This document shows positions 6,219-49,149 of a stretch of 64,000 bases of DNA, piece after piece. The stretch covers positions 12,627,814-12,691,813 of the forward strand of contig CP136063.1 of the NCBI GenBank assembly GCA_032622095.1. Direction: 5' to 3'. Every line of letters starts with the position of its first letter. Position 1 is the first letter of the stretch. The notes under the pieces are model-generated. The model was not told where the DNA came from. It made no database searches and saw nothing but the letters and a program-made list of their open reading frames with translations. This stretch comes from Siphonodentalium dalli. Lineage: Eukaryota > Mollusca > Scaphopoda > Gadilida > Siphonodentaliidae. A program made the translations under genes and the position numbers.

Positions 6219-6295
6219 AGCTCACCTGAGACGAAGTCTCTGGTGGAGCTATAGTCATCACTCCTCGTCCGTCGTCCGTCCATCCGTCCGTCCGT
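6219..6295 (+). repeat. hairpin head with CCGT microsatellite
   Basis: Imperfect hairpin AGCTCACCTGAGAC...GTCTCTGGTGGAGCT, then a run of CCGT/CCAT units from about 6266 to 6325. The hairpin core is related to the ACCTGAG...CTCTGGTT head of the tandem units at 35871 and 38462. It marks the 5' end of the repeat that contains the 1130 bp duplication. Confidence 0.6.
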
Positions 6296-11847: not shown

Positions 11848-12075
11848 GTACCTATACCATACTATGGTACACATAATGTCAATGTCCGGATTTACCACTC
11901 GTCTGTCCATCCATCTGTCTGTCAGTTTGTAGACACTTTAGGCAAAACGCGATAACTCTAACAATTTCTATTTGATCAGAACCAAATATTGTATATAGGT
12001 TTCTCATCCCAAAATACAGTTTGAGTTTGAATATGGGTTCGATCCGATATATTTTAAAGGAGTTATGACCCTTCT
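11848..12075 (+). repeat. hairpin-headed repeat, ACCATACTATGGT type, copy 2
   Basis: Same family as 10834-11400 and the same orientation: hairpin TGTGTACC...GGTACACA, a GTCTGTCCATCCATCTGTCTG-like head, and one body unit ending GAGTTATGACCC. Shorter than copy 1, with a single body unit. Confidence 0.68.
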
Positions 12076-12806
12076 TTTTTTTAAATTTGAAATTTTTATT
12101 TTTCATTTTTTTTAGATTAAATTTCCTCACTTAATTTAACATAAACAAATATTTAAAAACTTTTATAATAATAATAAAATAAATTAATTAAAAAAACAAA
12201 TTTGTCATTGACACTGCATGACTCCTGTATTGAAAATGTGAAGATTTTATTGCAATAGTTGCTTGTAATATGATGATATCAATAAATTGTCATGTGATCA
12301 TCCAATATCCATAGTATATGAGAATACCTTTAATAGATATCATTCCAAGCGAAATCTGTTATTATTTTGAGTGATGACATATGTTACATACATGTAGCTC
12401 TAGGAGGTGGTTCTATGAAGGTAAAGATGAACAACCTGCTGGCTGGATAATTGTTTATCCTATCTGTCAAATTGATTAATGTCTAAACAATTGGATCTCA
12501 CAATGAGAGGTCCTTGTGTGAATAGGAATGGAGTTATGAGATTTAAAACGACTTCTCCCCCACACCAATTACTTTAACCCCTTCTTAAGACAATTATTTG
12601 AGCTTTTGATTTTAAGTTAGGTACTTATATATGTATTACTGTGATCATATCTTTGACCAATTATCAGTTATCGCCAAGGTATGGGTTAAACATTTGCCGA
12701 TCGTGATCGGCCTCTCGTTAATGTAATAAGTTTCTGCTGCATGTAGTATTAGTGGCAGTTGCGGTATTACTGACAATACTATCAATAACATTAAAGGCCC
12801 ATAGTC
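12076..12806. other. AT-rich unassigned DNA
   Basis: Very A/T-rich around 12080-12200. No supported gene. TTAAAGGCCCATAGTCC at 12791-12807 resembles the TTAA-AGG left ends of other elements here, but no matching right end was found. Confidence 0.4.
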
Positions 12807-13209
12807 CAGGGGGGGGGGGGCAGAAAAAAACACAGGGTGGAAAAAATTTGCCAGATAAGCGATCGCAGTTTAGAATTCGACTGGTAGACACTGACATATT
12901 CGGCATTATTAAGAGGGTTAATGGGTGAATATCACATGTAAACCAAGACAGTGGTTATTCAAATTTGTTTTAGGTGGATTGTACTACTCATGTATATATG
13001 ATTTGGATATTAAGGTTAATCCATATTCTATAAAATGAGAGAAAATTGAAGTTGTGTGTCTGAAAATACATATTTGGAAAAAAATTACATGCAAATATCC
13101 CCCCCCCCCCCCCTAAATGAAAATTTGCGTGTAAATTTTTGACGCCTAGGTACCCCCCCACCCCCGGTACGTTGTGTCCCGCAGTTTTTTTCCGCCCCCC
13201 CCCCCCCTG
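12807..13209. mobile_element. poly-G/poly-C capped TIR element
   Basis: The left end reads CAG plus a G run (12 G in total) then CAGAAAAAAAC. The right end is the near-complement, GTTTTTTTCCG plus 13 C then CTG (13209). Identity continues imperfectly to about 33 bp. A 15-C run lies inside (13099-13113). No clear target duplication. About 400 bp, non-coding; probably a MITE whose ends are homopolymers. Confidence 0.5.
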
Positions 13210-13782
13210 CATATTAATGATAATACTAGGGGATTGCAGGTCAAATATGACCAGCATGACATCCAGGTTAGACTATATTTTTAATGCTACATGTACATGT
13301 ATTGTATTTCTGTTTCCCGACTAATCGAGCTTATTGCACCAAGTTTCTATCTGTTGAATCTTGTTGATAACATTTAACACCTGCTAATTGCAGATCCCTT
13401 GTCTCCAGATGCTTAATGGTGAAAACACCATCCAGTGCTCCCTAACAACATTAATCGCCATGGCCTTTCCTGTGTTATTGTCAAGAATCTGGTTGAAATA
13501 CATTTATTAAAATTACATATCAAGTCAGGAACATGTATATTTGCTATGCATGATAACTATAAAGTTATCACTCGTCTGTGGAAAGCTGATTATAGCTGAT
13601 GAATTTATGTGGTTTCAATTTTCAGTGATTCAGACCCTCCATTGGTGGTGTCCAACTTATAATTTTCAACTGCTATAACCCTTGAATCAGTCTATATATT
13701 GTAGAAATACTCCTAAGTAATACTTAATAAGAATTCTTTGTTTTTCTTGACAGATTTTTAAACCTGAAGACAAATACCCGGT
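13210..13782 (+). other. Helitron ORF leader region
   Basis: No coding support. A pyrimidine-rich stretch ending TTTTTCTTGACAG (13752) just before the start codon resembles a splice acceptor, so a 5' UTR intron is possible. A second open stretch follows an acceptor-like TTGCAG near 13394 but has no good donor. The 5' terminus of the Helitron was not located. Confidence 0.35.
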
Positions 13783-16700
13783 ATGGAGCAAGTTCATCAA
13801 GCCGAAAATGATAGTGTAAGCCAAGACCATGACTATGCAAATGCTTCACATGGCTATAGAAATGTATCCACCCCAGTCACCCCCATCCGAACAGCTGTGT
13901 GTGAAATTATCTCAATCAATAATAATGATTATTTTTTATATGCTGTTCCCGCTGATGGAGACTGTTTCTTCCATTGTGTTAGTTTATTTAGGTATGGTGA
14001 CCTGTCAATGACACCATACTTCAGATATAGTATATGCTCTGAGGTATTTACTGACTGGTTCAACCTTAGAGAACAGATTCAGTTGGCCCATAACTTTTCC
14101 CCAAACAATGCTGATGTATATAGAGACAAAATGCTTCTTGGTAGTGAATGGGCTTCAGCTGTTGAGCTGAAGACCTGTTCTGAACTTTTGAATGTGAATG
14201 TTAAAGTTTTTGTATCCCCCCCTGATCCTGGACTAATTTTGCAGTGCTATCAGCATGACTACAATGTTCCCAATGCAACTTCTACATTAATTCTTCTGCT
14301 TTCTTCTAATCACTACAGGCTACTCATGCCATTTGACTCTAATTCTGCTGAAGGCAATCTTTTTTCAAATTGCGAGGCAAATAGTTTGCCATACATATAT
14401 CCTCCTATTCTTGAAACAAACCGTGAAAGACGTAGAAGAGAGTTTGTTTTAAATAAGAGACTCTCACGTGTCCGTGCTAAAATTTCAGACCCAAACAGTT
14501 CATCCAATAAGAGAATACAAAGTGGATCTGAAGCAAATAAAAGAGCGAGGAAGGCTAAAACTTCTACTGGTGACACTGCAGGTACTTCTGTACCAAATTC
14601 GGCCACTGTTAGTGGAGATTTGTCTGTTTGTGACAATGCCATTGCATGTATACGTAAATTTGAATCTATCCAGATGTCATATGACATAAAACAGTGTTCT
14701 GTCTGTTTTGAAAGGCGAATTGAAATGAAAATGAAGGCGGGTTCGGATTGCTGTGTCAGGTGCTGGAGGGAGAAAAATAAGGTTAAAATGTTTTCAAATG
14801 AAAACAACATGAATCCTGGTGTTGTGCCACCAGAACTCCAGGACCTGACAGTGATAGAACAAAATTTGATTTGCCGAATTGCTCCCTGTATGAACATTCA
14901 CATGTTAAAACATGGGGGAATAGCTGCTAACGGTCATTGTGTGACTTTCCCTCAAGCTATTAATGAGCCATGTCAGGTTTTGCCCAATTTACCTGATTCA
15001 TTAACCATGGTTAGGTTCAGAAAGAAAGGAAGAAATGATAGCAGCAGAGATTTCAGGGTTCGGCGAGCTGTGGTTGAGAGAGCACTTCGATGGCTTAAAA
15101 TAAATAATATTGCATTTTCAGATATAGAAATCAGTGATGAACGATTGAGTAATTTGCCTGAGGATGGAGAGCTTGGTATAAGTACGGTTGAGTTTACCGA
15201 TAATATTGTACGACAAAATGATATGGGTCCTGCACCTGAGCAGTCAGCTGATACTGATGGGGATCAGGCTACTGTTTCAGCTGTTCTCCTTCCTCAACCA
15301 GTGTGCGATCTTGCTGAGAAAATAGATGGATTACTGACCGAAGTATCTGGTCCTGATCATGCACCATGTACAACAAATAGAAGAGGTGAAATTGTTGTAC
15401 CTTGGCCATCTAGACATAATGCTCCTGTTTCTGAATTCACTACTGTAAATTTCTTCACCCTTGCATTTCCCTGTCTGTTCCCTTTTGGTCATGGGGATTT
15501 CTACAGCTTGAGACCGAGGACTTGTACATCAATGAGTGATTGGGCACAACATTTGCTTTGGTTTAAAGATGGTAGATTTGCACGTCATCCTTTTTTCAAG
15601 TTTGTTGTCCATAATATGATTATTAGGAAACAAATACTAGAACGAAGTAAATTTATTGTTAATCAAAAACTTGGTGACCCCCATCTCACTATTGATGACT
15701 TGCAAACAATGCTTCGTGAGGGTAGAGATGATATTGCTAAAAAAAATCTTTATTTTTCTTCTAATGTTAGGGGCACCAATCAGTATTGGAATCAGCGCTC
15801 TCTTGATCTCCGAGCACTCATCCAGTATAAAATTGATTGTGGACTTCCTTCTTTCTTTGCTACGGCAAGCTGTGCTGAGTTTCACTTCAAACCTCTTCAT
15901 CGTCTTTTGAGTGAATATATATTGCAGACAACTGGAAAATCTGTTGATCTCACTGACAGAAATGTATTATTTAAAGCTCTTCAGGACAATTCGCACATCG
16001 TTGGGCATTACTTTGATTTAAGAACAACTTGCTATGTAAAGGAAGTCATGAAACCAGTTTTTGATATCAATACCTTCTGGATTCGATATGAATTTGCTAA
16101 GTCTCGGGGAATGGTTCACTGGCATGGGCTTTCCTGGCGGGGTGATAAACAGCCTCAATCTCTATTATTTGATGCATTCAAAAATGGTCAGTCTGAGGAT
16201 GAAATTGCCAAGATTCTTTCAAATTGGGCAGAAAATAAATTGGGCATGACAGCTTGTCATCCTGCTGGGAAGGATGTCAATGGAAACCCCCGAAAGGATC
16301 TTTGGCCACCGCCTGAAGGTACTGCTCCTGCTCCTCCTGAAGAGTCAAATCCTCTGGCTAAACTTTTATCTGATGTTGCATGTAATCAAGATTCTCTTCT
16401 TGAAGACTATCTCTTACTGACAAATCGTGTCAATATTCATCGGTGTTCTGATTATTGTTTGCGCCCCCCTCGTAAAGGGTCTCGGAGGGAAAAGGAATGC
16501 CGGATGGAGTTTGGATCAGAATCCAATCCTGGAAAACCGATCAGAGTTAATCCTGCTCTAGTTAAGGACAGAAATGGGTGCAAACGTTTAGAAATGGAAC
16601 GGGATCACCCTTTTCTGGTCCAAAACTCTAAATTTCATACACAGGGTTGGCGGGCTAATGGTGATTTGTCTTTATTGCTCTCGATGACTGATCCAAAAAA

Positions 16701-19167
16701 TCCGTCAATTGACGATATCATCGGTATAGAAAGGTATGTATGCGGATACGCATGCAAAGGTAATGAGGGTACTGGAGCACTTGTTGATGTCTTTCGTGAC
16801 ATGGCAAACACCACTGAGGATTCTATGGCAAAGTCTCTCTGTTCAAAGTTTTTGATGTCTACAGTGAAGAGGGATGTATCTGCTGTGGAAGCTTCTTTTG
16901 AGCTAAGCTCAATTCCCCTATATCACTGTAGTCATCAGTTTACTGCTGTCAGTCTTTCAGGCACTCGTCAATTGGAGAAAAAAGGCCACACACTTACTAA
17001 AGCCACATATCTGGACAAATATTTAGCCAGAGATCAAGATGATATTGTTTCTTTTTATCAATTTATTCAGAGGAGTGGTAAAGTTCCCGTTATCAGTGGC
17101 TGTAATGTTAGAGCTTCATGGCCTCCCCAGGATGATTATTGCCGCTCGATGCTTTTACTTCACTGGCCGAATTGGTCTAAAATTTCAGATGTTAAGATAG
17201 ATAATATGAGTTGGACTGATATTTTTCTACAATTTCTCAACAGTGATGCATGTCCAATTATTGTAAAGGCTGACATTGAAAGATCAAAAAGAAAGATATC
17301 ACCTGAGCCTTTGGAAGAGAATAATTCTGGCCCTGATGATGAAGTTAATGACGAAAATCAACCTGATTGGATGGAGACTGTTCAGCCTCATGCATTGTTT
17401 GATGATTTTACGGAAGACTTCGATTATGATGATGGTGGTCCTTGTCAGGATTGGTCTATAAACAGTTATAGCTACCCGTCTGACTTAGGTGTTTCATGGC
17501 TGGAGAACACTCTTTATTCTGATTTATCTGTATCGGATGAGTTGACTATTCCTGATGTTGATTTAAATTCATTGAATTCTGACCAGAGATTCGCATTTAA
17601 TTTGGTTGTGCAGACTCTAATTAATCACAAAAATAACATTCCTTATGAACCACTTAGGCTCATTGTTTCTGGTGCCGCAGGTTCTGGGAAGTCTTATTTG
17701 ATTAAATGTCTTGTAAAAGCAACCCGCCTCCTTTTTAATAGGAATGAAGCAGTTCAGGTTGTTTGTCCAACAGGAAGTAGTGCCAACCTCATTTCAGGTG
17801 TTACACTCCATTCATTTTTCAAAATACCATGCACCTCAAAGTCCAAAGAAATGGATCCCCCTGATGGAGCTGCAGGGTTAGCCCTGCAGAAAAATTGTAC
17901 TGGTCTTGAAGCACTTCTTGTTGATGAAAGATCGCTTGTTGGCTGTCGGACTTTAGGTTGGATGGAGTTTTTATGTAAATGTGGCTTGAAGACAATCGAT
18001 AATTCTGATTCAAGTCTTTGGGGCGGTTTACCAGTTGTTGTGTTTCTGGGCGATGATGTCCAATTACCTCCTGTTGCTGACACTCCAGTATTTATGTGTT
18101 CAAGTACCTCAACTGTTGGGTTACATGGTTATATGGTGTGGCAGAAGTTTGATCAGGCAGTTATTTTGAAAACTGTTGTACGGCAAGGAGAAAATCAACC
18201 AAAACTTCGAGATGCTTTAGCTTCATTACGTCGGTATGACTTATCACATGATCAATGTAAATGGTTGCAGGAATTCCATTTTCATTCTCTGAAATCGAGG
18301 TTTGGTTCAGAATTGCTCAGTAGATTGGATGAACATGGCTTATTTGTTTTTCCTACTCACGCTCAAGAATGGGAGCATAATAAGGTGAGGTTACTTGAAT
18401 GCAACAATTCACATCCTGTTGCTAAACTGATTGCCATTAACTCTGGACCCCATTCTAAATATATACCCTCTGACAAAGCTTGTGGGTTGTTGCCTATTCT
18501 TTACATTTGTAAATCAGCCAAAGTTATGTTGACAACTAACTTGAGTGTTAAGCATGGTCTGTTTAATGGTGCACCAGGGACTGTTATTGATATAATTTAT
18601 AAGGATGGACGCAGACCCCCTGAATTCTTACCTGATGTGGTCATGGTAGAGTTTAAAACCTACACTGGTCCAGGTTTCATGTCTGAAAATTCGAACATAC
18701 TTCCTATTGTGGCTGTGGAGAGACGTTTAGACTGCCCGTGTAGTGGATGCAGAAGAAAACAAATACCCCTTAGACTAGGGTGGGGAACAACTATACATCG
18801 GTGCCAGGGTATGACTATTGGTCATGGTGAGGCAAATCGATATATTGTTATTGACCCTGGCACTAAGCAGTTTGAAGCCCGTAATCCTGGTGCTTTATTT
18901 GTTGCCCTTTCTAGGGCCAAAAATGCTGGAGAGAATGGTGAAGATCCAGATTTTGCTTGGAATAAAAATACTCTTATTAATGAAGATCGGTTGTGCTTCA
19001 AAGCTAATACGAACACAACTAGGGCAAGAACTGAAGAGATAAAAAGAATTGGTAGGATTTCAGAAAAGACAAAACTTGACTTTTCTACTGAGTTGTCTCC
19101 TGATATCTTCCAGCAACACCTACTATTCCTGACAGGTCTCCAGCAGTCCCTTTTGAATGAACCTTGA
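13783..19167 (+). CDS. Helitron replicase-helicase with N-terminal OTU domain
   Basis: An uninterrupted 1794-residue ORF. Domains in order: an OTU-type cysteine protease-like domain with DGDC at 58-61 (candidate nucleophile Cys61) and NHY with His177; a Cys-rich segment (C305, C308, C323/C324, C327) followed by a VPPEL...LTVIEQ stretch typical of the DUF6570 region of Helitron proteins; the Helitron N-terminal domain (LFPFG near 565-569); HUH motif H779-W-H781; a zinc-binding-like NIHRCSDYC with H886, C888 and C892; and the two-tyrosine motif Y985...Y989. The C-terminal Pif1-like SF1B helicase has Walker A GAAGSGKS 1297-1304, Walker B D1381-E1382, GDDVQLPP 1423-1430, VVRQ ending 1468, IHRCQG near 1672-1676 and ALSR 1708-1711. 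By family knowledge the HUH tyrosines nick and join single strands during rolling-circle-like transposition and the helicase unwinds. The OTU role is unknown. No C-terminal endonuclease is seen, unlike typical Helentrons. ATG 13783 is the first in-frame start after a possible acceptor at 13752. Every key catalytic motif checked is intact. Confidence 0.95.
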   Translation: MEQVHQAENDSVSQDHDYANASHGYRNVSTPVTPIRTAVCEIISINNNDYFLYAVPADGDCFFHCVSLFRYGDLSMTPYFRYSICSEVFTDWFNLREQIQLAHNFSPNNADVYRDKMLLGSEWASAVELKTCSELLNVNVKVFVSPPDPGLILQCYQHDYNVPNATSTLILLLSSNHYRLLMPFDSNSAEGNLFSNCEANSLPYIYPPILETNRERRRREFVLNKRLSRVRAKISDPNSSSNKRIQSGSEANKRARKAKTSTGDTAGTSVPNSATVSGDLSVCDNAIACIRKFESIQMSYDIKQCSVCFERRIEMKMKAGSDCCVRCWREKNKVKMFSNENNMNPGVVPPELQDLTVIEQNLICRIAPCMNIHMLKHGGIAANGHCVTFPQAINEPCQVLPNLPDSLTMVRFRKKGRNDSSRDFRVRRAVVERALRWLKINNIAFSDIEISDERLSNLPEDGELGISTVEFTDNIVRQNDMGPAPEQSADTDGDQATVSAVLLPQPVCDLAEKIDGLLTEVSGPDHAPCTTNRRGEIVVPWPSRHNAPVSEFTTVNFFTLAFPCLFPFGHGDFYSLRPRTCTSMSDWAQHLLWFKDGRFARHPFFKFVVHNMIIRKQILERSKFIVNQKLGDPHLTIDDLQTMLREGRDDIAKKNLYFSSNVRGTNQYWNQRSLDLRALIQYKIDCGLPSFFATASCAEFHFKPLHRLLSEYILQTTGKSVDLTDRNVLFKALQDNSHIVGHYFDLRTTCYVKEVMKPVFDINTFWIRYEFAKSRGMVHWHGLSWRGDKQPQSLLFDAFKNGQSEDEIAKILSNWAENKLGMTACHPAGKDVNGNPRKDLWPPPEGTAPAPPEESNPLAKLLSDVACNQDSLLEDYLLLTNRVNIHRCSDYCLRPPRKGSRREKECRMEFGSESNPGKPIRVNPALVKDRNGCKRLEMERDHPFLVQNSKFHTQGWRANGDLSLLLSMTDPKNPSIDDIIGIERYVCGYACKGNEGTGALVDVFRDMANTTEDSMAKSLCSKFLMSTVKRDVSAVEASFELSSIPLYHCSHQFTAVSLSGTRQLEKKGHTLTKATYLDKYLARDQDDIVSFYQFIQRSGKVPVISGCNVRASWPPQDDYCRSMLLLHWPNWSKISDVKIDNMSWTDIFLQFLNSDACPIIVKADIERSKRKISPEPLEENNSGPDDEVNDENQPDWMETVQPHALFDDFTEDFDYDDGGPCQDWSINSYSYPSDLGVSWLENTLYSDLSVSDELTIPDVDLNSLNSDQRFAFNLVVQTLINHKNNIPYEPLRLIVSGAAGSGKSYLIKCLVKATRLLFNRNEAVQVVCPTGSSANLISGVTLHSFFKIPCTSKSKEMDPPDGAAGLALQKNCTGLEALLVDERSLVGCRTLGWMEFLCKCGLKTIDNSDSSLWGGLPVVVFLGDDVQLPPVADTPVFMCSSTSTVGLHGYMVWQKFDQAVILKTVVRQGENQPKLRDALASLRRYDLSHDQCKWLQEFHFHSLKSRFGSELLSRLDEHGLFVFPTHAQEWEHNKVRLLECNNSHPVAKLIAINSGPHSKYIPSDKACGLLPILYICKSAKVMLTTNLSVKHGLFNGAPGTVIDIIYKDGRRPPEFLPDVVMVEFKTYTGPGFMSENSNILPIVAVERRLDCPCSGCRRKQIPLRLGWGTTIHRCQGMTIGHGEANRYIVIDPGTKQFEARNPGALFVALSRAKNAGENGEDPDFAWNKNTLINEDRLCFKANTNTTRARTEEIKRIGRISEKTKLDFSTELSPDIFQQHLLFLTGLQQSLLNEP

Positions 19168-19173
19168 ATTAAA
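19168..19173 (+). terminator. ATTAAA polyadenylation signal candidate
   Basis: ATTAAA lies immediately after the TGA stop of the Helitron ORF. It is a common variant of the animal poly(A) signal. Six bases can occur by chance in AT-rich DNA. Confidence 0.35.
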
Positions 19174-19203
19174 CAATAAGTGAACTATTGCAATTTTCAT
19201 GCA

Positions 19204-19689
19204 TAACTTTCGGTCACGGACAGATCTGTCCCCAGCCATCTGTATATGTATGATGATTTGAATCGATTACTCCTCTTCTGCTCCAGTTGCTTCATGATTT
19301 ATGCTACTTTGCATTTTCAGTCTTTTCTCTTGTTCACAGGCAGTATAACCAATAATCATTTACATTTGCTTGGGATTGTTTTTGCAATACACATGTACCA
19401 GTGCAATTGTCATTTTCTATGCTTTCTGTAGACTTAGTATCATGTTCCATTTGAACTATACTTTTATAGTTGTTTTACAATGAGTTTTAGAAGTTTTTTC
19501 TCCTTATAGTGCAATTGTTGACACTGTTAATTGTTTGATTTGCAGTATAGTGTATCTTTTGTGACATATTTCTGTATACCTGTAAAAGGTATTACAAAAC
19601 TTTGTGCAATATTTTAAGGTGCAATACATGTATCTTCTACCGGGTATATGGTTCTGCTTTCATATTGAAAGTCTTCATCTTTCACTTAC
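19204..19689 (+). repeat. first 132-mer unit plus spacer 0
   Basis: One unit with palindrome GGACAGATCTGTCC at 19218-19231, then a spacer beginning near 19266 (CTCTTCTGCTCCAG) that matches the later spacers. The unit lies right against the ORF 3' end, which suggests the repeat originated from the element's own 3' region. Confidence 0.75.
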
Positions 19690-20268
19690 ATAGAATCTTC
19701 CTCTTTAGCCACAAACAATGCCTCATCAGAGTTATATCGTTATATATTTCTGAATTCATCTCTTACATAACTTCTGGTCACAGACAGATCTGTCCCTAGC
19801 CATTTGTACATGTATGATGATTTGAATCAAATATTCCTCCTCAGCCACAAACAATGCATCGTCAGAGTTATATCGTCTTCCATCCGATTCATCTAATGCA
19901 TAACTTCTGGTCACGGACAGATCTGTCCTCAGCCATTTATATATGTATGATTTGAATTGAATACTCCTCTTCAGCCACAAACAATGCTTCATCAGAGTTA
20001 TATCGTTATATATTTCTGATTCATCTCTTACATAACTTCTGGTCATGGACAGATCTGTCCCCAGCCATTTGTATATGTATGATGATTTGAATCGAATACT
20101 CCTCTTCAGTCACAGACAATGCTTCATCAAGAGTTATATCGTTATATATTTTTGATTCATCTCTTACATAACTTCTAGTCATGGACAGATCTGTCCCCAG
20201 ACATTTGTATATGTCTGATGATTTTAATCGAATACTCCTCTTCAGCCACAAACCATGTGTCATCAAAT
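19690..20268 (+). repeat. 132-mer block A, 4 units
   Basis: Palindromes near 19783, 19915, 20047 and 20183. The most diverged block, with longer ATGATTTGAATC variants and several base changes, consistent with older copies at the ORF-proximal edge. Confidence 0.8.
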
Positions 20269-20630
20269 ACTTCTCTTCTGCTCCAATTCCCTCATGTTTT
20301 ATGCTAACGTTACTTGATATTTTCAAGTTCAGGGATAGTTTTGCAATACACATGTACCAGTGCGATGTCATTTTGCTATGCTTTATGCAGACTTACTATC
20401 AGGTTCCATTTTCAACAATACATTTATTATTTTAAAGTTGTTATACAGTGAGTTTTAGAAGTTTTTTCTCCTTATAGTGCAATTGTTGACACTGTTAATT
20501 GTTTAATTTGCAGTATAGTGTATCTTTTGTAACATCTCTGTATGCCTGTACAAGGTATTATAAATTATATGCTTCTGCTTTCATATTGAAAGGCTTCATC
20601 TTTCACTTACATAGTTCTCTGAATAGTATC
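20269..20630 (+). repeat. inter-block spacer 1
   Basis: Begins TACTTCTCTTCTGCTCCA and ends before CTTCCTCTTCAGCCACAAA of the next block. Shares TAGTGCAATTGTTGACACTG and other stretches with spacers 0 and 2-5. Non-coding. Confidence 0.75.
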
Positions 20631-21713
20631 TTCCTCTTCAGCCACAAACCATGCATCGTCAGAGTTATATCGTCATATATTTCTGATTCATCTCTTACAT
20701 AACTTCTGGTCATGGACAGATCTGTCCCCAGCCATTTGTAGATGTACGATGATTTGAATCAAATACTCCTCTTCAGCCACAAACATATCGTCAGAGTTAT
20801 ATCGTCTTCCATTTCTGATTCATCTCTTACATAACATCTGGTCACGGACAGATCTGTCCTCAGCCATTTGTATATGTATGATGAGAATAAAATATTCCTC
20901 TTCAGCCACAAACAATGCATCGTCTATATCGTCTTCCATTTCTGATTCATCTCTTACATAACTTCTGGTCACGGACAGATCTGTCCCCAGCCATTTGTAT
21001 TTGTATGATGAGAATCAAATATTCCTCCTTAGCCACAAACCATGCATCGTCAGAGTTATATCGTCTTCTATTTCTGATTCATCTCTTACATAACATCTGG
21101 TCACGGACAGATCTGTCCTCAGCCATTTGCATATGTATGATGAGAATCAAATATTCCTCTTCAGCCACAAACAATGCGTCGTCAGAGTTATATCGTCTTC
21201 CATTTCTGATTCATCTCTTACATAACTTCTGGTCACGGACAGATCTGTCCTCAGCCATTTGTATATGTATGATGAGAATCAAATATTCCTCTCCAGCCAC
21301 AAACAATGCATCGTCAGAGTTATATCGTCTTCCATTTCTGATTCATCTCTTACATAACTTCTGGTCACGGACAGATCTGTCCTCAGCCATTTGTGTATGT
21401 ATGATGAGAATCAAATATTCCTCTCCAGCCACAAACAATGCTTCATCAGAGTTATATCGTCTTCCATTTCTGATTCATCTTTAACATAACTTCTGGTCAC
21501 GGACAGATCTGTTCCCAGCCATTTGTATATGTATGATGAGAATCAAATATTCCTCTCCAGCCACAAACAATGCATCGTCAGAGTTATATCGTCTTCCATT
21601 TCTGATTCATCTCTTACATAACTTCTGGTCACGGACAGATCTGTCCTCAGCCATTTGTATATGTATGATGAGAATCAAATATTCCTCCTTAGCCACAAAC
21701 AATGTGTCATCAA
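20631..21713 (+). repeat. 132-mer block B, 8 units
   Basis: Palindromes at 20714, 20846, 20973, 21105, 21237, 21369, 21501 and 21633. Spacing is 132 bp except one 127 bp unit that lacks a few bases before TATATCGTC. The last five to six units are nearly identical to one another. Confidence 0.9.
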
Positions 21714-22170
21714 ATACTTCTCTTCTGCTCCAGTTTCCTCATGTTTTATGCTAACAGTACTTGATATTTTCAAGTTCAGTGTTTTCTTTTGGTCACAAGC
21801 AGTCCAGCCAATAATAATATTTGTTTGCTTGGGATAGTTTTGCAATACACATGTACCAGTGCGATGTCATTTTGCTATGCTTTATGCAGACTTAGTCTTA
21901 CTATCAGGTTCCATTTGAACAATACTTTTATTCTTTTATAGTTGTTATACAGTGAGTTTTAGAAGTTTTTTCTCCTTATAGTGCAATTTTTGACACTGTT
22001 AATTGTTTAATTTGCAGTATAGTGTATCTGTTGTAACATTTCTGTATGTCTGTACAAGGTATTACAAATTTTGTGCAATATTTTAAGCTGCAATATCTTC
22101 TATATGCTTCTGTTTTCATATTGAAAGGTTTCATCTTTCACTCACATGTACATAGTTCTCTGAATAGTAT
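21714..22170 (+). repeat. inter-block spacer 2
   Basis: Nearly identical to spacer 3 (22995-23430) over most of its length. Contains TTTTGGTCACAAGCAGTCCAGCC, which looks like a decayed version of the 132-mer palindrome region. Confidence 0.8.
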
Positions 22171-22994
22171 CTTCCTCTTCAGCCACAAATCATGCAATGT
22201 CAGAGTTATATCGTCTTCCATTTCTGATTCATCTCTTACATAACTTCTGGTCACGGACAGATCTGTCCCCAGCCATTTGTATATATATGATGAGAATCAA
22301 ATATTCCTCTCCAGCCACAAACAATACGTCGTCAGAGTTATATCGTCTTCCATTTCTGATTCATCTCTTACATAACTTCTGGTCACGGACAGATCTGTCC
22401 TCAGCCATTTGTATATGGTTGATGAGAATCAAATATTCCTCTCCAGCCACAAACAATGCGTCGTCAGAGTTATATCGTCTTCCATTTCTGATTCATCTCT
22501 TACATAACTTCTGGTCACGGACAGATCTGTCCCCAGCCATTTGTATATGTATGATGAGAATAAAATATTCCTCTTCAGCCACAAACAATAAGTCGTCAGA
22601 GTTATATCGTCTTCCATTTCTGATTCATCTCTACATAACTTCTGGTCATGGACAGATCTGTCCCCAGCCATTTGTATATGTATGATGAGAATAAAATATT
22701 CCTCTCCAGCCACAAACAATGCGTCGTCAGAGTTATATTGTCTTCCATTTCTGATTCATCTCTTACATAACGTCTTGTCACGGACAGATCTGTCCTCAGC
22801 CATTTGTATATGTATGATGAGAATCAAATATTCCTCTTCAGCCACAAACAATGCGTCGTCAGAGTTATATCGTCTTCCATTTCTGATTCATCTCTTACAT
22901 AACTTCTGGTCACGGACAGATCTGTCCTCAGCCATTTGTATATGTATAATGAGAATCAAATATTCCTCCTTAGCCACAAACAATGTGTCATCAA
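22171..22994 (+). repeat. 132-mer block C, 6 units
   Basis: Palindromes at 22255, 22387, 22519, 22650, 22782 and 22914. One unit is 131 bp (a T lost in CTCTTACAT). Same orientation as the other blocks. Confidence 0.9.
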
Positions 22995-23430
22995 ATACTT
23001 CTCTTCTGCTCCAGTTCCCTCATGTTTTATGCTAACAGTACTTGATATTTTCAAGTTCAGTGTTTTCTTTTGGTCACAAGCAGTCCAGCCAATAATAATA
23101 TTTGTTTGCTTGGGATAGTTTTGCAATACACATGTACCAGTGCGATGTCATGTCTTACTATCAGGTTCCATTTGAACAATACTTTTATTCTTTTATAGTT
23201 GTTATACAGTGAGTTTTAGAAGTTTTTTCTCCTTATAGTGCAATTGTTGACACTGTTAATTGTTTAATTTGCAGTATAGTGTATCTGTTGTAACATTTCT
23301 GTATGTCTGTACAAGGTATTACAAATTTTGTGCAATATTTTAAGCTGCAATATCTTCTATATGCTTCTGTTTTCATATTGAAAGGTTTCATCTTTCACTC
23401 ACATGTACATAGTTCTCTGAACAGTACACG
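22995..23430 (+). repeat. inter-block spacer 3
   Basis: Almost the same sequence as spacer 2, with a short deletion after GCGATGTCAT (near 23149). The shared block-plus-spacer order of 21.7-24.1 kb indicates segmental duplication of a larger unit of about 1.1-1.5 kb. Confidence 0.8.
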
Positions 23431-24128
23431 TATCTTCCTCTTCAGCCACAAATCATGCAATGTCAGAGTTATATCGTCTTCCATTTCTGATTCATCTCTT
23501 ACATAACTTCTGGTCATGGACAGATCTGTCCTCAGCCATTTGTATATGTATGATGATTTGAATCATATATTCCTCTTCAGCCACAAATCATGCAATGTCA
23601 GAGTTATATCGTCTTCCATTTCTGATTCATCTCTTACATAACGTCTGGTCACGGACAGATCTGTCCCCAGCCATTTGTATATGTATGATGAGAATAAAAT
23701 ATTCCTCTCCAGCCACAAACAATACGTTGTCAGAGTTATATCGTCTTCCATTTCTGATTCATCTCTTACATAACGTCTGGTCACGGACAGATCTGTCCTC
23801 AGCCATTTGTATATGTATGATGAGAATCAAATATTCCTCTCCAGCCACAAACCATGCATCGTCAGAGTTATATCGTCTTCCATTTCTGATTCATCTCTTA
23901 CATAACTTCTGGTCACGGACAGATCTGTCCTCAGCCATTTGTATATGTATGATGAGAATCAAATATTCCTCTCCAGCCACAAACAATGCTTCATCAGAGT
24001 TATATCGTCTTCCATTTCTGATTCATCTCTTACATAACATCTGGTCACGGACAGATCTGTCCTCAGCCATTTGCATATGTATGATGAGAATCAAATATTC
24101 CTCCTTAGCCACAAACAATGTGTCATCA
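23431..24128 (+). repeat. 132-mer block D, 5 units
   Basis: Palindromes at 23518, 23653, 23785, 23917 and 24049. The first unit is 135 bp and carries the longer GATTTGAATCATAT variant. Confidence 0.9.
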
Positions 24129-24570
24129 AATACTTCTCTTCTGCTCCAGTTCCCTCATGTTTTATGCTAACGGTACTTGATATTTTCAAGTTTAGTGTTT
24201 TCTTTTGGTCACAATAATTTTTGTTTGCTTGGGATAGTTTTGCAATACACATGTACCAGTACAATTGTCATTTTGCTATGCTTTATGCAGACTTAATATC
24301 AGGTTTCATTTGAACAATACTTTTATATAGTGTTTATACAGTGAGTTTTAGATGTTCTTTCTACTTATAGTGCAATTGTTGATGCTGTTAAGTGTTTGAT
24401 TTGCAGTACCGTATAGTGTATATTTTTTGATATATCTGTGTTTGCCTATATATTGTATTATAATTTTTGTGCAATATATCTAGGTGCAATATCTTCTATA
24501 TGCTATCACTTTCATTTTTATTCCCAGACAGTGAACATTCATCTAAATGAGACAAACTTTTATCACAGTT
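24129..24570 (+). repeat. inter-block spacer 4
   Basis: A diverged spacer with TGTTGATGCTGTTAAGTG in place of the usual TGTTGACACTG stretch. This diverged type recurs at the end of spacer 5. Confidence 0.72.
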
Positions 24571-25638
24571 GTCTCTTCAGCCACAAACTATGCATCGTCA
24601 GAGTTATATCATCTATTACATAACTTCTGGTCACGGACAGATCTGTCCCCAGCCATTTGTATATGTATGATGAGAATCATATATTGCTCTTTAGCCACAA
24701 ACCATGCATCATCAGAGTTATATCGTCTTCCATTTCTGATTCATCTCTTACATAACATCTGGTCACGGACAGATCTGTCCTCAGCCATTTGTATATGTAT
24801 GATGAGAATCATATATTCCTCTTTAGCCACAAACCATGCATCGTCAGAGTTATATCGTCTTCCATTTCTGATTCATCTCTTACATAACGTCTGGTCATGG
24901 ACAGACCTGTCCTCAGCCATTTGTACATGTATGATGAGAATCAAATATTCCTCCTTAGCCACAAACCATGCATCGTCAGAGTTATATCGTCTTCCATTTC
25001 TGATTCATCTCTTACATAACTTCTGGTCACGGACAGATCTGTCCTCAGCCATTTGTATATGTATGATGAGAATCAAATATTCCTCTTCAGCCACAAATCA
25101 TGCAATGTCAGAGTTATATTGTCTTCCATTTCTGATTCATGTCTTACATAACTTCTGGTCACGGACAGATCTGTCCCCAGCCATTTGTATATGTATGATG
25201 AGAATCAAATATTCCTCTCCAGCCACAAACAATACGTCGTCAGAGTTATATCGTCTTCCATTTCTGATTCATCTCTTACATAACGTCTGGTCACGGACAG
25301 ATCTGTCCCCAGCCATTTGTATATGTATGATGAGAATCAAATATTCCTCTTCAGCCACAAATCATGCAATGTCAGAGTTATATCGTCTTCCATTTCTGAT
25401 TCATCTCTTACATAACTTCTGGTCACGAACAGATCTGTCCTCAGCCATTTGTATATGTATGATGAGAATCAAATATTCCTCTTCAGCCACAAATCATGCA
25501 ATGTCAGAGTTATATCGTCTTCCATTTCTGATTCATCTCTTACATAACTTCTGGTCACGGACAGATCTGTCCCCAGCCATTTGTATATGTATGATGAGAA
25601 TCAAATATTCCTCCTTAGCCACAAACAATGCTTCATCA
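24571..25638 (+). repeat. 132-mer block E, 8 units
   Basis: Palindromes at 24635, 24767, 24899 (one-base variant), 25031, 25163, 25295, 25427 (one-base variant) and 25559, almost all at exactly 132 bp. One reading frame stays open across the whole block because 132 is a multiple of three. Confidence 0.9.
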
Positions 25639-26115
25639 AATACTTCTCTTCTGCTCCAGTTCCCTCATGTTTTATGCCAACGTTACTTGATATTTTCTTA
25701 CTATCAAGTTCCATTTGAACAATACTTTTATACTTTTATAGTTGTTATACAGTGAGTTATGGAATTTTTTTCTCCTTATAGTGCAATTGTTGACACTGTT
25801 AATTGTTTAATTTGCAGTATAGTGTGTCTTTTGTAACATCTCTGTATGCCTGTACAAGGTATTACAAATTTTGTGCAATATTTTAAGGTGCAATACATGT
25901 ATCTTCTACCGGGTGCAATTGTTGATGCTGTTAAGTGTTTGATTTGCAGTACTGTATAGTGTATATTTTGTGATATATCTGTGTTTGCCTGAAGATTGTT
26001 TTACAATTTTTGTGCAATATATCTAGGTGCAATAGCTTCTATATGCTATCACTTTCATTTTTATTCCCAGCCAGTGAACATTCATTCAAAATGAGACAAA
26101 CTTTTCTCACAATTG
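25639..26115 (+). repeat. inter-block spacer 5, composite
   Basis: Starts like spacers 1-3, then switches near 25915 to the spacer-4 type (TGTTGATGCTGTTAAGTG). It looks like a recombinant of the two spacer classes. Confidence 0.72.
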
Positions 26116-27320
26116 TCTCTTCAGCCACAAACCATGCGTCGTCAGATATATATTGTTATATATTTCTTATTCATCTCTTACATAACTTCTGGTCACGGAC
26201 AGATCTGTCCTCAGCCATTTGTATTTGTATGATGAGAATCAAATATTCCTCTTCAGCCACAAATCATGCAATGTCAGAGTTATATATATCGTCTTCCATT
26301 TCTGATTTATCTCTTACATAACATCTGGTCACGGACAGATCTGTCCCCAGCCATTTGTATATGTATGATGAGAATCAAATATTCCTCCTTAGCCACAAAC
26401 CATGCATCGTCAGAGTTATATCGTTTTCCATTTCTGATTCATCTCTTACATAACTTCTGGTCACGGACAGATCTGTCCCCAGCCATTTGTATTTGTATGA
26501 TGAGAATCAAATATTCCTCTCCAGCCACAAACAATGCGTCGTCAGAGTTATATCGTCTTCCATTTCTGATTCATCTCTTACATAACTTCTGGTCACGGAC
26601 AGATCTGTCCCCAGCCATTTGTACATGTATGATGAGAATCATATATTCCTCTTTAGTCACAAACAATGCATCGTCAGTGTTATATCGTCTTCCATTTCTG
26701 ATTTATCTCTTACATAACGTCTGGTCACGAACAGATCTGTCCTCAGCCATTTGTATATGTATGATGAGAATCAAATATTCCTCTTCAGCCACAAATCATG
26801 CAATGTCAGAGTTACAAAATGTATATCGTCTTCCATTTCTGATTCATCTTTTACATAACGTCTGGTCGCGGACAGATCTGTCCTCAGCCATTTGTATATG
26901 TATGATGAGAATCAAATATTCCTCTTCAGCCACAAATCATGCAATGTCAGAGTTACAAAATGTATATCGTCTTCCATTTCTGATTCATCTCTTACATAAC
27001 TTGTGGTCACGGACAGATCTGTCCCCAGCCATTTGTATTTGTATGATGAGAATCAAATATTCCTCTTCAGCCACAAATCATGCAATGTCAGAGTTATATA
27101 TCGTCTTCCATTTCTGATTCATCTCTTACATAACTTCTGGTCACGGACAGATCTGTCCCCAGCCATTTGTATATGTATGATGAGAATCAAATATTCCTCT
27201 TCAGCCACAAATCATGCAATGTCAGAGTTATATATCGTCTTCTATTTCTGATTCATCTCTTACATAACTTCTGGTTATGGACAGATCTGTCCTCAGCCAT
27301 TTGTATTTGTATGATTTGAA
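26116..27320 (+). repeat. 132-mer block F, 9 units, length variants
   Basis: Palindromes at 26197, 26333, 26465, 26597, 26729, 26870, 27011, 27145 and 27279. The 26870 and 27011 units are 141 bp because of an extra CAAAATGTA-like segment; the next two are 134 bp from an extra TA. Neighbouring units share the same variant, indicating local amplification. The array then breaks off into unique sequence. Confidence 0.9.
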
Positions 27321-27689
27321 ACGAACCATAGTATGCCAACTATGTTACTGTAATTACTCGGACATATGTGTACATATATCTCTGTATGCCTGAATGTTTT
27401 TATAAGTATATTGTACAGGAGTACATGTAGTTGTTGTCTAGTGTCTCTAGTACTTTGTGACTGCAATTTTTTTGTATATATTTACAATGTTTGTGCAATA
27501 TTTATTTGTGCAATATTTCTATATGCAATATTCCTAGGTACAATATTTCTATGTGCAATATCCTATTTTATAAGCGTTTGCTTATTTCATTCCTACCCAG
27601 CCAGTGCACATTCCTTCAAAATTGTCTTCTCACAGTTACATGTACATGTATGTGTACATAAGCCTGATTTCATATATATTTATGGAAAG

Positions 27690-29060
27690 ATTTATGCACA
27701 CATTTTGGTCACTGGCAGCTCAGCCAACAACCATCTGTGTATGTAATATACCATGATGATTAGCCGTTTTCATGGAACACTACATGTATGTCACTATGCC
27801 TTCTCAGTAAGTGATCTTCAAAGTTTTAGTCATGCCTTTTGGTCACTGGCAGCTCAGCCAACAGCCATCTGTGTATGTAACAGATCATGGTATTTAGCAT
27901 TACTTTGCCCAACTCTGCGTTTATTGTTTGTCTGATTAATGATGTATATTGAGGGAAAGTTTAGAGCATGCATTTTGGTCACTTGGAGCTCAGCCAACAA
28001 CCATTTTTTAAGCAATGGATTGTGCAATATCCTTTTTTTAACCCGACCCTACATGCATGTTTAAGTATATGTACATATATATATATACAGGTAACTCTTT
28101 TCAGTATGCATTTTGTCAGTTACAGCTTCTCACTTCTAAGCCAAAATACATTTTTTAGTTTAGCCTTTCGTCACAAAACACTTTTTCTCACTACTTGTCA
28201 GTAAGTTATTTTGAAAGATTTATGCGTACATTTTGGTCACTGGCAGCTCAGCCAACAGCCATCTGTGTATGTAATATATCATGATGCTTAGCCTTTCTTT
28301 ACGGAACCCTACATGTACGTGCATTTCACTACACCTTGTGAGCAAGTCATCTAGAATGTTTTAGTCATGCAATTTGGTCACTGGCAGCTCAGCCAACAGC
28401 CATCTGTGTATGTAACAGATCATGGATTTTAGCCTCTATTCACAAAACGCTATATGTATTTCACTACTCCTTGTCAGTTAGTAATCTTCAAAGATTTATG
28501 CATACATTTTGGTCACTGGCAGCTCAGCCAACAGCCATCTGTGTATGTAACAGATCATGGATTTTAGCCTCTATTCACAAACACTACATGAATCTCCTTA
28601 CGCCCTTGTCAGTATGTCAACTTGATGGAAAGTATTAAAAATGCCTTGTTTGCTTTAACACCCCTAAATTACTATTTCTTCGGCTTTGGCGGTGAAACAT
28701 ATGTTATTTGAGTTGCAAGCATTTGCCATGGCCCAGTTTGCGTCAGCAAATCGCTTTGGCATTGCTGATTGCAGTAGCCAATTATGAGGGCTGTATGAAG
28801 GGGAGTAGTGGAGAACACCAGTTTGAGCCATATACGGAATTTGAGGTGTAGGAAATATGTAATTTTTTAGGAAATATGTAATTTTTAGAAATAAAAATCT
28901 CTCAGCTTGCTTTGAAGGGTGGGTTCCTTGATTCAAATAAAATATTGTTCACCTCCATCCTGAAAAAATAGTAATTTTGGGCTGTTAAATCGAACAGGGC
29001 ATCTTTAAGCATGAGTTTTGGTCACTGGCAACTCAGCCAATAGCCATATCATTCTGTGTA
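27690..29060 (+). repeat. decayed relatives of the 132 bp repeat
   Basis: GGTCACTGGCAGCTCAGCCAAC-like segments followed by CATCTGTGTATGTAA occur near 27706, 27838, 27974, 28232, 28375, 28508 and 29018. The first spacings are about 132-143 bp or near-multiples. The segment aligns with the GGTCACGGACAGATCTGTCC...CAGCCATTTGTATATG part of the 132-mer but has lost the palindrome. This is probably an older, diverged array edge. Confidence 0.65.
28721..28797 (-). repeat. dispersed repeat, - copy
   Basis: Inverse-orientation relative of the segment at 3472-3550 (TAGCCAATTATGAGGGCTG here, its complement there). It sits within the decayed repeat zone. Confidence 0.5.
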
Positions 29061-29319
29061 TGCATGCATAGAACCATGAAGTTTGATTTGATTGCTTTGG
29101 CAAACTCTCTTACACCTCTTCATAATGATGTGTTATTGATAGTCCAAGTTTCCTTTGATTTAAAAACTGATTTTTTTTTTATTTGACTCAGCTTTATCTT
29201 ACAAATCAGTACAAAAAACTATATTTATCAGAATTCGCACACCTTATCGTCATAATGACGTATTATGTATTATCTAACTTTTAATAGTTTTATGTTCACA
29301 TTTTCTATACTAAATGGTG

Positions 29320-38716: not shown

Positions 38717-39480
38717 AACTCATGCAATATAATTATTGCTACAGATTCGAGAGGATTTGGAGTGAGATCACTTCTGAAAGAGGATGTCCCATCAGAAATC
38801 ATCAATTTTAATATTTTTATGATTTGTATTTCTGGTGGGACCATCCAAGACATTCAATCAGAAGTGATCTCACTCCTGACACGACTCCGGACAAAGAACC
38901 CTGAGTGCTTTATTTATGTCGTGATGGCAGCTGGCATCTGCAACATCACGACAGTAATGAAACACTCAGGGGGGGGCGACAGGTGGTATATGACAGCAAC
39001 CGCTACACTAAGTTTGAACTTAGTGTAGTGGATGCTGTCAGTGAACAAATAGAGGACACATGTAACGAACTTTCTCACTTTGGCATAGTGTGCAAGTTCG
39101 TGTGTATACCACCGGTAGACTTATTGAAGCATAACAATTCTTTGTTTACAAGGCACAGGCTACGGACATTTCTGGTCCAACCGGAAGAGCTTCAGCTACA
39201 ACAGAAGCCACTGGAGAGGTGTGTGGAGGAGATAAACTCCAATATACTCTCTCTCTGTGAGGCCAATGATGTGGCTGCTCTACGGTGGGACCGAGATGTC
39301 CGTAAGATCGCAAAAATGGCTTTCGGGGCGCGCAAAATATTGAGAAGGAGGGAGTGGTGGTGCTATTCACCATTTTATGGTGGCTGCCATCCTTGTTCAG
39401 TTTTAGAGCAAAAGTGGCTGAAGGGGCTGTGTAAATCAATAATTGTAGATGTATGTACACATTGTAATATACATTATTAA
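38717..39480 (+). pseudogene. SGNH-hydrolase-like terminal exon, frameshifted
   Basis: Opens at 38717 immediately after an acceptor (pyrimidine-rich tract, TTATAG). Early residues read IIIATDSRGFG, like the GDS/SGNH block I region with a D-S core, followed by a GGTIQDI stretch and AAGICNIT, like the block III G-x-N. After a G run at about 38969-38975 the frame shifts by one and the second frame continues with YDSNRY, IPPVDLLKHN and a C-terminal GGCHPCSVLEQKW resembling the D-x-H-P-S end, here with Gly where the catalytic Asp is expected. Stop 39478-39480. Similar SGNH-like ORFs are known inside mollusc repeats. It is either a decayed gene or a homopolymer sequencing error; the missing Asp favours an inactive protein. 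Confidence 0.6.
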
Positions 39481-41566
39481 ATATTGATCTTTGTCAAATT
39501 GTCGGCAAATCATGCTTTTTATATTTACACATCTACTAGTATATGTAATTGCAATATTGTCCCTTATTACTTATAGCGATGCAACTATATATGCAAGACA
39601 TCTTGTTCTGACAGTTTAAGACCATGAATGGTACTATTATGTTGACAATCTAATTAATTGTATTGAGATTTTCACAATACTTCTGTTTGGTCAGCTTCCA
39701 ATTTGCAAAGTTTTCAAAATGACATAAATAATTTTGTAAAAGATGATAATCTTTGCACTTAAAAGATTAACTGTATTAAAATTCTTAAATGTTTTGCTGG
39801 TGTGATTCATGGAAAAAACAAACGCTGTGTGTGTATATATATGAAACATATTTGTCAATATTTGTGACATTTCAAAGAGAAGGACTTCAAAATATTTAAA
39901 CAAATTATGTGGCCATGACCGAATTGTCTTTTAAATGCACGGATGGCCTTCTGCTTGGTATGCTGTTAAATTGGTCACACTAGTTAAATATAGACAGGCT
40001 TTGTTCTTATACAAATCAATACCAATCTGATACACATATTGCTTTACAGTATGTAATTGTAAAGTTTATATGCTTTTTTTTCTAAACAAAAGCAAGGTTC
40101 CCTAACATTTAGCTTTTGTTCACATAACAAGGCATACAAACTTGACAATAACATACTATTTACAATATATTTATGATTGATATCAGAACACAGTCTGTCT
40201 ATATTTTAATATTATTTCTGTTTATGACGGTTTTAATGTTTGTGACTATTTAATGGCATACGTACTGTGAAGGCTATCTGGGCCTTTAATTATTTAATAT
40301 AATATCAATCAACCCAGATTCTGCATTCAGACTTCGGGACTCTCATTGATTTCAGGAATAAGGGATTTATCATTTTGTCAAAAATAATTCATATTCATAT
40401 CTCCAAATAAGACAATATTTGTAAATGCCTTTGACATGTAATCTATAGGTCTATGACACTGTGTCTGAAATCATGTAAGCATATACATGTTTATAAGCAT
40501 GGGCAATTTTTTTTTTTTAATCCAATTTCCACGAAACATTCTGCTTTAGATGCAAACAATTGATTTGATACTTGCCCGTTTGTTTACAGTCCTTTCTCCT
40601 TGTTTCAATATTTAATCAATGATCATATTGGTGCTACAGGCTGTTATTATTTTTGGATTTAGGCACTGTTCACACATGCAACGCTAGCCCAGACTAGCAA
40701 TCGTATTTGGGTCATATCAGGGTTTTGTTTTTTATTGCCTGTATACCCGGTACATCATTATTATTGGTCTGGCCATCCATACATCCATTCACTTTTGGTT
40801 TGTGGATGATAACTTTAGATAGCTTTAACTGAATGCATTTGGTGCAGGTAAATTTCGAATCCGGGGCATGGTGTATCATGTGTGAACATTAACTCAGATT
40901 CTCCTCAAAACAATTAATATTAAAGAATAACCAATTAAAAAGCCTGTATTTAATGTTATGTATGGTCACCACAGATCAAGCTGATATAATTTATGCTATT
41001 ACAAAGGACCATATATCATGATTATGTCCCCTATCATGTCCGATACATTGCATTTAATTGGTGTGAGAGCCACAAATCTCATCTTTGCGTCTCAAGTCGT
41101 TAATATGGAAGTCACTATCCAACTATTCCACTTCCTCTCATTCGACTGTTTTATGATGTCATTTACAATGTTATGAAGAGATTTTCATATGAATCCATGA
41201 TCTGTTGATTTGAGGAGAATCATAGCACAACTAGTACATATATATCTTTGAATGTTTTGGTCAAGAGCAGACCTGCCAATAACAATTATCACTTTTGACG
41301 TGGATTTACACAGCACCGACATCACTTTTCGTCTGTCTAATTATCCTGAGACCCGCTCTATTAATAAATATATTCCCAATATCGTCAACTCTCTGATAGG
41401 TCCTTCATCAAATTAGTTGCGGATGGCACAAGGATATATATGACCAAGTGACATTCACAATGAGTTTGTAAACAGATTTTAGATTATGATGCAAGTTGTG
41501 TTCTGTATTTATTCCACACCTTTCTGGTAGATAAGTTCACCTATTACTGAGACTACCATTGATATT
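39481..41566. other. non-coding, no gene seen
   Basis: AT-rich. Around 40750-40890 it weakly resembles the GATAACTTT...TGAATGCATTTGGTGCA body of the CCGT-headed repeats. Nothing else supported. Confidence 0.45.
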
Positions 41567-46520: not shown

Positions 46521-46529
46521 CATTTAAAT

Positions 46530-48739: not shown

Positions 48740-48829
48740 TGATCATTGAAGAGAATGTTATACTGGAAGGACTGTTTCTAGATTTATCATCCATTCTTAC
48801 ATGTATCTATCAGAAAAAGCTATTTTTTT

Positions 48830-49080: not shown

Positions 49081-49149
49081 TTCGACCATCTGACTCCCCT
49101 GCTTATGTTTCTTAACCATTTCATGATTGCAGGTGCGCTATTTTCAGCA

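Follow-up and report, generated by a model that had tools for sequence, protein, structure and literature searches.

A hairpin-bearing tandem array as the probable intergenic region of a large two-gene Helitron2-like transposon in the scaphopod Siphonodentalium dalli

The genome of the scaphopod Siphonodentalium dalli (2.23 Gb in nine contigs) contains a 64,000-nucleotide stretch, C3:12627814-12691813, here called the window, in which the gene of a Helitron replicase (open reading frame 1, ORF1) is followed on the same strand by 41 tandem units of about 132 bp. We consider it very probable that this array occupies the internal space between the two genes of a large Helitron2-like rolling-circle transposon, in which ORF1, the array and a second reading frame, ORF2, lie on one strand. 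The fuller explanation that we find best, namely that the array in this two-gene element arose from a hairpin past the replicase stop codon that has been kept by selection and works in the transcript, has about even chances of being right. The argument draws on the following features of the window.

13656..13782, + strand: leader of ORF1; homology to a second copy (C4:81.66 Mb) begins about here (blastn, 92% over 13656-13842)
13783..19167, + strand: ORF1, the replicase, 1794 amino acids (open reading frame listing and Pfam)
19204..27315, + strand: main array, unit of about 132 bp, 41 units (a solo one and six blocks), with a hairpin in each unit
~19272-19716, 20237-20648, 21687-22189, 22968-23452, 24103-24569 and 25613-26131, + strand: six recurring spacers
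27704..29050, + strand: distal divergent array, period of about 135 bp (Tandem Repeats Finder and covariance model)
38726..39450, + strand: ORF2 remnant (tblastn with the second ORF of relative C9, E 2.4e-21), matched in two reading frames, the copy being broken
41256..41289, + strand: lone hairpin 3' of the ORF2 remnant (covariance model, 32.6 bits, E 3.3e-5)

As the initial annotation had proposed, the array appears to be part of the replicase-bearing element: its junction with the gene is kept in the second copy, relatives carry arrays of their own after the ORF, and in one of them, C9, a single insertion holds all the parts. ORF1 fuses a Rep (HUH) domain to a Pif1 helicase, which places it in the Helitron superfamily; Pfam finds DUF6570, Helitron_like_N (the Rep domain, E 3.9e-22) and PIF1 helicase (E 6.3e-17), an OTU-like region scoring below the cut-off, and no endonuclease domain among the 11 matches at E<=0.1. 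The second copy of ORF1 (locus C4, L002), found by protein search, is interrupted by stop codons; its larger pieces show 81-96% identity. It has the array of the window, and the gap between stop codon and hairpin match is 41 nt in both copies. An independent boundary between 19168 and 19204, by which array and gene would be separate insertions, was looked for and not found, since C4 shares the junction. Homology to C4 starts at ~13656, which need not be the 5' end of the element. At the other side this homology halts in the middle of a spacer (L002:2502), so C4 was not used as a guide to the 3' end of the window element.

Tandem Repeats Finder detects a 132-bp period in arrays from 19694 to 27315, and the central palindrome, counted with up to two substitutions, gives 41 units at 19212-27273 in groups of 1, 4, 8, 6, 5, 8 and 9. 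The forty-one units, six blocks and recurring spacers first annotated are thereby confirmed by palindrome count and spacer alignment, with a solo first unit to be added, and so is the position of the array directly 3' of the replicase gene in the same orientation, the first unit lying about 37 bp past the ORF1 stop. The spacers are 86-100% identical to one another over 333-478 aligned bases and contain divergent copies of the hairpin, clear at 21788 and 23069 and weak at 19329 (18.4 bits). Beyond the part annotated initially lie, on the same strand, the distal array of 27704-29050, with hairpins at 27704, 27838, 27974, 28232, 28373, 28508 and 29017, and the ORF2 remnant of 38726-39450.

With at most one mismatch allowed, the core of the 132-mer, GGTCACGGACAGATCTGTCC, is met 47 times in the genome: 45 times in the window and C4 loci, and twice at stray sites. 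The first 397 bases of the array, used as query in a genome search that scores a limited number of candidates, matched the window and C4 loci only. Both searches thus meet essentially two ORF1 loci, which indicates that the array travels with the ORF and is no dispersed satellite. The suggestions that the 132-mer might serve as core repeat of short non-autonomous copies, or exist as a free satellite, therefore find no support in this assembly. Long arrays apart from the element, as expected of a satellite, are not seen, 45 of the 47 core places being within two element copies; nor do the repeats ride on a short non-coding element of the HINE kind, as the 132-mer core sits in two gene-bearing copies, bar the two stray sites.

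Among ten ORF1 relatives whose 3' side was read, seven have an array 3' of the ORF, and six of these seven have units unlike the 132-mer:

C4 (81.66 Mb): array of 132-bp units after ORF1
C2:166.38 Mb (C2): 139- and 148-bp arrays after ORF1
C7:163.17 Mb (C7a): 139- and 154-bp arrays after ORF1
C3:32.45 Mb (C3b): 117-bp array, ~0.5 kb after ORF1
C9:53.59 Mb (C9) and C4:267.30 Mb (C4b): 51- and 80-bp arrays after ORF1
C5:130.82 Mb (C5): 149-bp array, ~0.8 kb after ORF1

The helicase region gives the tree ((C2,C7a),(C4,window),(C3b,(C5,(C9,C4b)))). Sister pairs, with 91-97% amino acid identity in this region, have array units in common; across pairs (<=76% identity) no DNA match of more than 150 bases between arrays was seen, and mainly the hairpin is recognisable, although by eye about 13 bases after it are also common to the units of the window and of C2/C7a. 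Solo copies of the hairpin are present past the stop in C2 and C7a. Homology between these two breaks at L004:9791, yet ORF2 is located further on. Between window and C2, 20.5, 10.4 and 49.2% of first, second and third codon positions differ in the helicase region (595 codons), a sign of purifying selection between families. The young pairs, in which one copy is broken, reveal little constraint by codon position (1.6/1.9/3.5% for window/C4, 1.0/1.0/2.0% for C9/C4b and 6.1/4.4/7.7% for C2/C7a). Arrays with no ORF1 match within ~4.5-5 kb upstream were found only of the 117-bp type, at C7:44.98 and 48.13 Mb, with ORF2 downstream of both. As a separate observation, L030 (C7:163179967-163180663, minus strand) is a 131-bp hairpin array that resembles the distal array of the window; it precedes the C7a ORF1 match by about 5 kb and does not itself follow an ORF1 match.

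C9 and C4b, 97% identical in the helicase region, can be bounded, C9 almost to the base. Their homology begins with TCACAACCC and finishes past ATCATATTAGG(T), which delimits elements of 21,442 and 18,897 bp. In C9 one insertion contains ORF1, array and ORF2 together, the array ending about 5.3 kb short of the element's 3' end. The joined flanks of C9 match a palindromic repeat with many copies in the genome (80 matches listed), and two full copies of this repeat that lack the element (L070, L071) read TTTAT-AGG-TTTGTG and represent the empty site, whose AGG is either lost or common to the 3' end of the element. From the same comparison, which concerns a relative and not the window element, there is no target-site duplication in C9, in keeping with the Helitron superfamily. 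The insertion point is the loop of the multicopy palindromic repeat (flanks L062, L061). Mapping of boundaries by comparing sites with and without the insertion, as the initial annotation advised, thus worked for the 21,442-bp C9 relative and its empty site; for the window element itself no ends could be located.

The ends of the bounded copies also bear on classification. Both copies have TC at the start when the first T is included, but they finish in ATTAGG(T) and not in CTRR, and so do not fit Helitron1. C9 has a 5' hairpin ACAACCC/GGGTTGT (shorter in C4b), and both copies have TTTGGGTTGT and a TACGT/ACGTA palindrome near the 3' end, which together form the asymmetric inverted repeats with palindromes at both ends that define Helitron2 termini. 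Helentrons and HINEs insert at TT or T-rich targets; here T flanks both copies if the AGG is assigned to the element, but the sequence of the empty site is TTTAT-AGGTTT. The Pfam result for ORF1 agrees with Helitron2, which has no endonuclease, and not with Helentrons and their AP endonuclease. In the available text of PMC4067079, Helitron2 is described with one ORF (Rep/Helicase) and Helentrons carry an endonuclease. Since ORF2 is present in the bounded C9 and C4b and in four more loci, against a single ORF in Helitron2, we file the family as Helitron2-like only. The Rep-Pif1 protein and, in the bounded relatives, the 5' hairpin, subterminal inverted repeat, near-3' palindrome and lack of target duplication are shared with Helitron2/Helentron as outlined in the same portion of that source (PMC4067079); the length of the bounded relatives (18.9 and 21.4 kb) and the multi-kilobase array and ORF2 between replicase and 3' end are not. 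One-orientation tandem repeats of similar length within a rolling-circle element, with arrays that differ among related elements, are known from HINE, Pearl and the oyster Cg_HINE (PMC7492417, as far as its available text goes), whereas the elements described here are gene-bearing with the array after the replicase, and the oyster arrays are short, the longest having 29.3 units. For the satellite-like arrays of Cg_HINE, the available part of PMC7492417 states that the authors could link no autonomous element. In the literature searched, which did not extend to most subscription papers, we found neither a published autonomous element bearing such arrays nor a hairpin common to Helitrons and long interspersed nuclear elements (LINEs).

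Six of the eight ORF1 loci with an array (window, C9, C4b, C3b, C2 and C7a) also have ORF2, which lies 3' of the array in the same orientation. In C2, ORF2 has the motifs GTDSRG, GICD and DGCHP, and a distant relative at L067 has AADSR and GIND. The blocks of SGNH hydrolases are GDS, G, GxND and DxxH, and by motif only ORF2 looks like such an enzyme; Pfam and PDB searches for its family or structure gave no convincing match. A hydrolase-like gene that moves with a Helitron is known from the texim genes of platyfish. There the hydrolase gene comes first and the Helitron coding region follows on its 3' side, according to the available text of PMC4021074, whereas in the present elements ORF1 and array come before the hydrolase-like ORF; the word 'tandem' is absent from that paper (PMC4021074). 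Distant kin of ORF2, an ORF of 284 amino acids, occurs in dispersed copies of equal score (L067, C1:50653790, C1:96214060, C5:35624231, C9:185684527 and C9:204446958) and may represent a hydrolase-like gene carried by some other mobile element.

What is kept while the units turn over is a hairpin of two helices, in the window UGGU-CAC-GGAC-AGAUCU-GUCC-CCA-GCCA. To assess its pairing, 14 real copies were picked by hand among arrays, spacers, solo sites and LINE-like copies and compared with 500 shuffles; pairs in their alignment were counted for two structures, one with just the inner helix and one with both helices. Of 112 cells, 91.1% are paired; 16 are altered on both sides relative to the commonest pair (shuffles 5.8+-2.6, 0/500 as high), and the covariation score of 0.434 exceeds that of every shuffle (0.257+-0.031, 0/500) and of slid controls (<=0.174). 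These compensatory changes lean towards pairing having been maintained between families. Twelve family consensus hairpins, read in sense, have six G.T pair states and no A.C, in a count whose families are partly non-independent (window and C4; distal array and the C7 upstream arrays); a G.T excess would weakly favour sense RNA or a sense single strand. For the 51-mer of C9, energy prediction alone gives a fold of similar shape, UGG-GA-GUGGC-AUGUCA-GUCAC-AA-CCA, and of five Helitron units folded in sense against shuffles only the 139-bp unit of C2 is clear (z -3.34).

A covariance model trained on these 14 rows, 4 of them from the window, recognises 52 full-length copies in the window at E<=1, every one on the + strand. 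The main array accounts for 41 of these, the distal array for 7 and the spacers for 3, and one lies at 41256. The lone match on the - strand is partial (13.8 bits, E 0.64). Across 16 further loci at E<=0.5 there are 158 matches in ten, namely C4, C2, C7a, C3b, the ORF1-less arrays L031 and L032, L030, L016 and two LINE-like loci, so that the hairpin is retained in the window and in four of the seven array-bearing relatives (C4, C2, C7a and C3b). The stretches of C2 and C7a past ORF2 and the outer parts of C9 and C4b gave no match at E<=0.5; whether the hairpin at 41256 is part of the element is uncertain, as the C2 and C7a stretches after ORF2 (L063, L064) have no such copy. At E<=1 the model matched none of three array-less relatives, four 3' flanks of Helitrons of other clades and five 5' flanks (which make up 15 loci with C9, C4b and C5), three of the four other-clade flanks being weak controls because the ORF end is visible in L035 alone. 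On the 5' side of ORF1 no match was found in the flanks of C4, C2, C3b, C9 and C5, in the window or in the 5' regions of C9 and C4b, and a looser search of the 5' flanks gave 8 weak matches, near chance level. Rfam had no match at gathering threshold in window 12000-31000, L002, L004, L006, L007 and L010; its sole match at E<=1 was a weak, below-threshold U7 elsewhere in L018.

A degenerate form of the motif occurs at 349 exact places in the genome, the reversed control at 0. Of 100 places listed, C2 arrays contain 37 and the window 11; the other 52 are dispersed, and 12 loci around 13 of these were fetched. These LINE-like copies have in common a module of about 104 bp, with a single motif in each: eight copies are of a first type and four of a second, and one (L028) has only ~150 bp in common. 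Copies of the first type vary in their 5' starts, and four of six examined have TCTAA-repeat tails. Upstream of the motif, L018, L022 and L023, which cover both types, carry what we take, from its motifs, to be reverse-transcriptase sequence, and in these three copies, whose frame is readable to the stop, the motif lies in sense 88-136 nt past the stop codon. The motif thus follows the stop of two unrelated mobile genes, the reverse transcriptase and ORF1, and its sharing may reflect common descent by capture or a shared function. Conserved domains common to LINEs and short interspersed nuclear elements are of a known kind; the short module in otherwise different LINE-like 3' regions is comparable, although here it is partly common to Helitrons. 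The module itself (L018 1328-1431 and relatives) folds as a single long hairpin (z -2.95 and -3.82 for the sense strand, -2.40 and -4.49 for the antisense strand) and is ~93.5-97% identical between the two LINE-like families. Viral contigs contained no relative of ORF1, and 13 stretches with one motif match each were taken as chance.

Several results weigh against the explanation that we prefer, on the side of the element as well as of the hairpin. A search of the window for element ends, with the terminal sequences of C9 and with generic inverted repeats plus palindromes, gave no convincing pair, the generic search yielding 23 candidates, many of them doubled by duplications, against a mean of 3.7 in three shuffles. 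ORF2 was found after the C4 and C5 arrays neither in the 7-8 kb read nor by genome search. The relatives at C6:179.7, C2:124.4 and C7:44.90 Mb have no tandem array 3' of the ORF; in them the ORF match ends before the C terminus (1635, 1711 and 1668 of 1794), and some pieces have stops. The hairpin model finds nothing at E<=1 in the arrays of C9, C4b and C5, the energy fold of the C5 unit has no similar shape, and the first hairpin of C3b is as far as 529 nt past the stop. The structure was picked on the very sequences used to assess it; two-sided change in four of eight pairs is reached by 65/500 shuffles, and the number of pair types, by 500/500, the observed value being below the shuffles. 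Sense folding of the other units is unremarkable (z -1.00 and 0.75 for the window, 0.53 for C3b, 0.09 for the 148-bp unit of C2). Within arrays, single changes give 12 G.T against 14 A.C and 21 one-sided changes give non-pairs; with this lack of strand bias and these broken pairs, the arrays offer weak evidence on the strand and speak against tight constraint on single units.

How might such arrays form? The seed would be a short structured motif close past the replicase stop codon, multiplied together with adjacent sequence by unequal exchange or rolling-circle slippage. As amplification would take whatever adjoins the motif, each lineage would acquire its own unit and period, and selection would retain the hairpin while the unit sequence turns over. 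In the transcript the hairpin may act as an element of the 3' untranslated region, affecting stability, 3' processing or translation; for such a role as RNA we put the chances somewhat short of even. The broader proposition, that a small structured RNA past the stop codon is common to Helitrons and LINEs, and that in Helitrons it was multiplied, its spacers replaced and its fold kept, so that the arrays are selected regulatory regions, is advanced more tentatively still.

The hairpin could alternatively be read in DNA, as a site in the displaced strand where the replicase binds, pauses or finds a back-up terminator, multiplied for binding or to stop read-through, by analogy with plasmid iterons and the 3' terminal hairpin of Helitrons. 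A changing stem sequence would suit a structure read in single-stranded DNA, the model matches of the window, C4, C2, C7a and C3b point the same way as ORF1, and the 3' end of the C9 element bears a hairpin too. Against these stand the 5.3 kb between the C9 array and that end, the failure of both the model and the looser search 5' of ORF1, and the presence of the motif in LINE-like copies, whose propagation would not involve the replicase, and we consider such a role improbable. Neutral growth as a satellite, with the hairpin a hot spot of replication or recombination that causes slippage, would let arrays recur without benefit, the hairpin seeming conserved because it is the seed. It accords with the turnover of units between families, with the block duplication shown by the six near-identical spacers, with the frequent pair-breaking variants within arrays, and with the rolling-circle amplification of internal Helitron repeats proposed in a 2025 review, as its available text has it (PMC12628747). 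We nevertheless judge it rather unlikely, because compensatory changes between families suggest maintained pairing, the motif is single in the fetched LINE-like copies, and solo post-stop hairpins stand in C2 and C7a. That a satellite or other element merely came to lie beside the ORF by chance is barely credible: beyond the abrupt change of sequence past the stop nothing speaks for it, and it is contradicted for this family by the identical junction in C4, the arrays after the ORF in seven of ten relatives, and the one insertion of C9.

Other repeats were encountered besides. L036 2939-4011 (C1:214.42 Mb), in the flank of a Helitron of another clade, has a GTCC microsatellite that precedes a 174-bp x6 array and looks like a further array-bearing element family; the window has repeats of comparable sequence and period at 46590, 54420 and 56038. 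A 1.13-kb tandem duplication of the window (6294-7425 / 7424-8555, 99.1% identical), with 147-bp repeats beside a CGTC microsatellite, resembles a HINE-type element. At 45864-54550 / 55312-64000 there is a direct duplication of at least 8.7 kb with 99.8% identity and an offset of ~9.45 kb, reaching the window edge.

In our preferred explanation, an array within a two-gene Helitron2-like element grown from a selected hairpin, the most interesting part is the hairpin as a possible selected RNA element. Gene-bearing relatives hold arrays of their own at one fixed place after the replicase, and one of them is bounded almost to the base, which makes the origin of such arrays testable. A hairpin common to the 3' regions of LINEs would, if true, tie together two classes of transposons in an unusual way, and satellite-like arrays inside transposons could then be selected regulatory regions and not just by-products.

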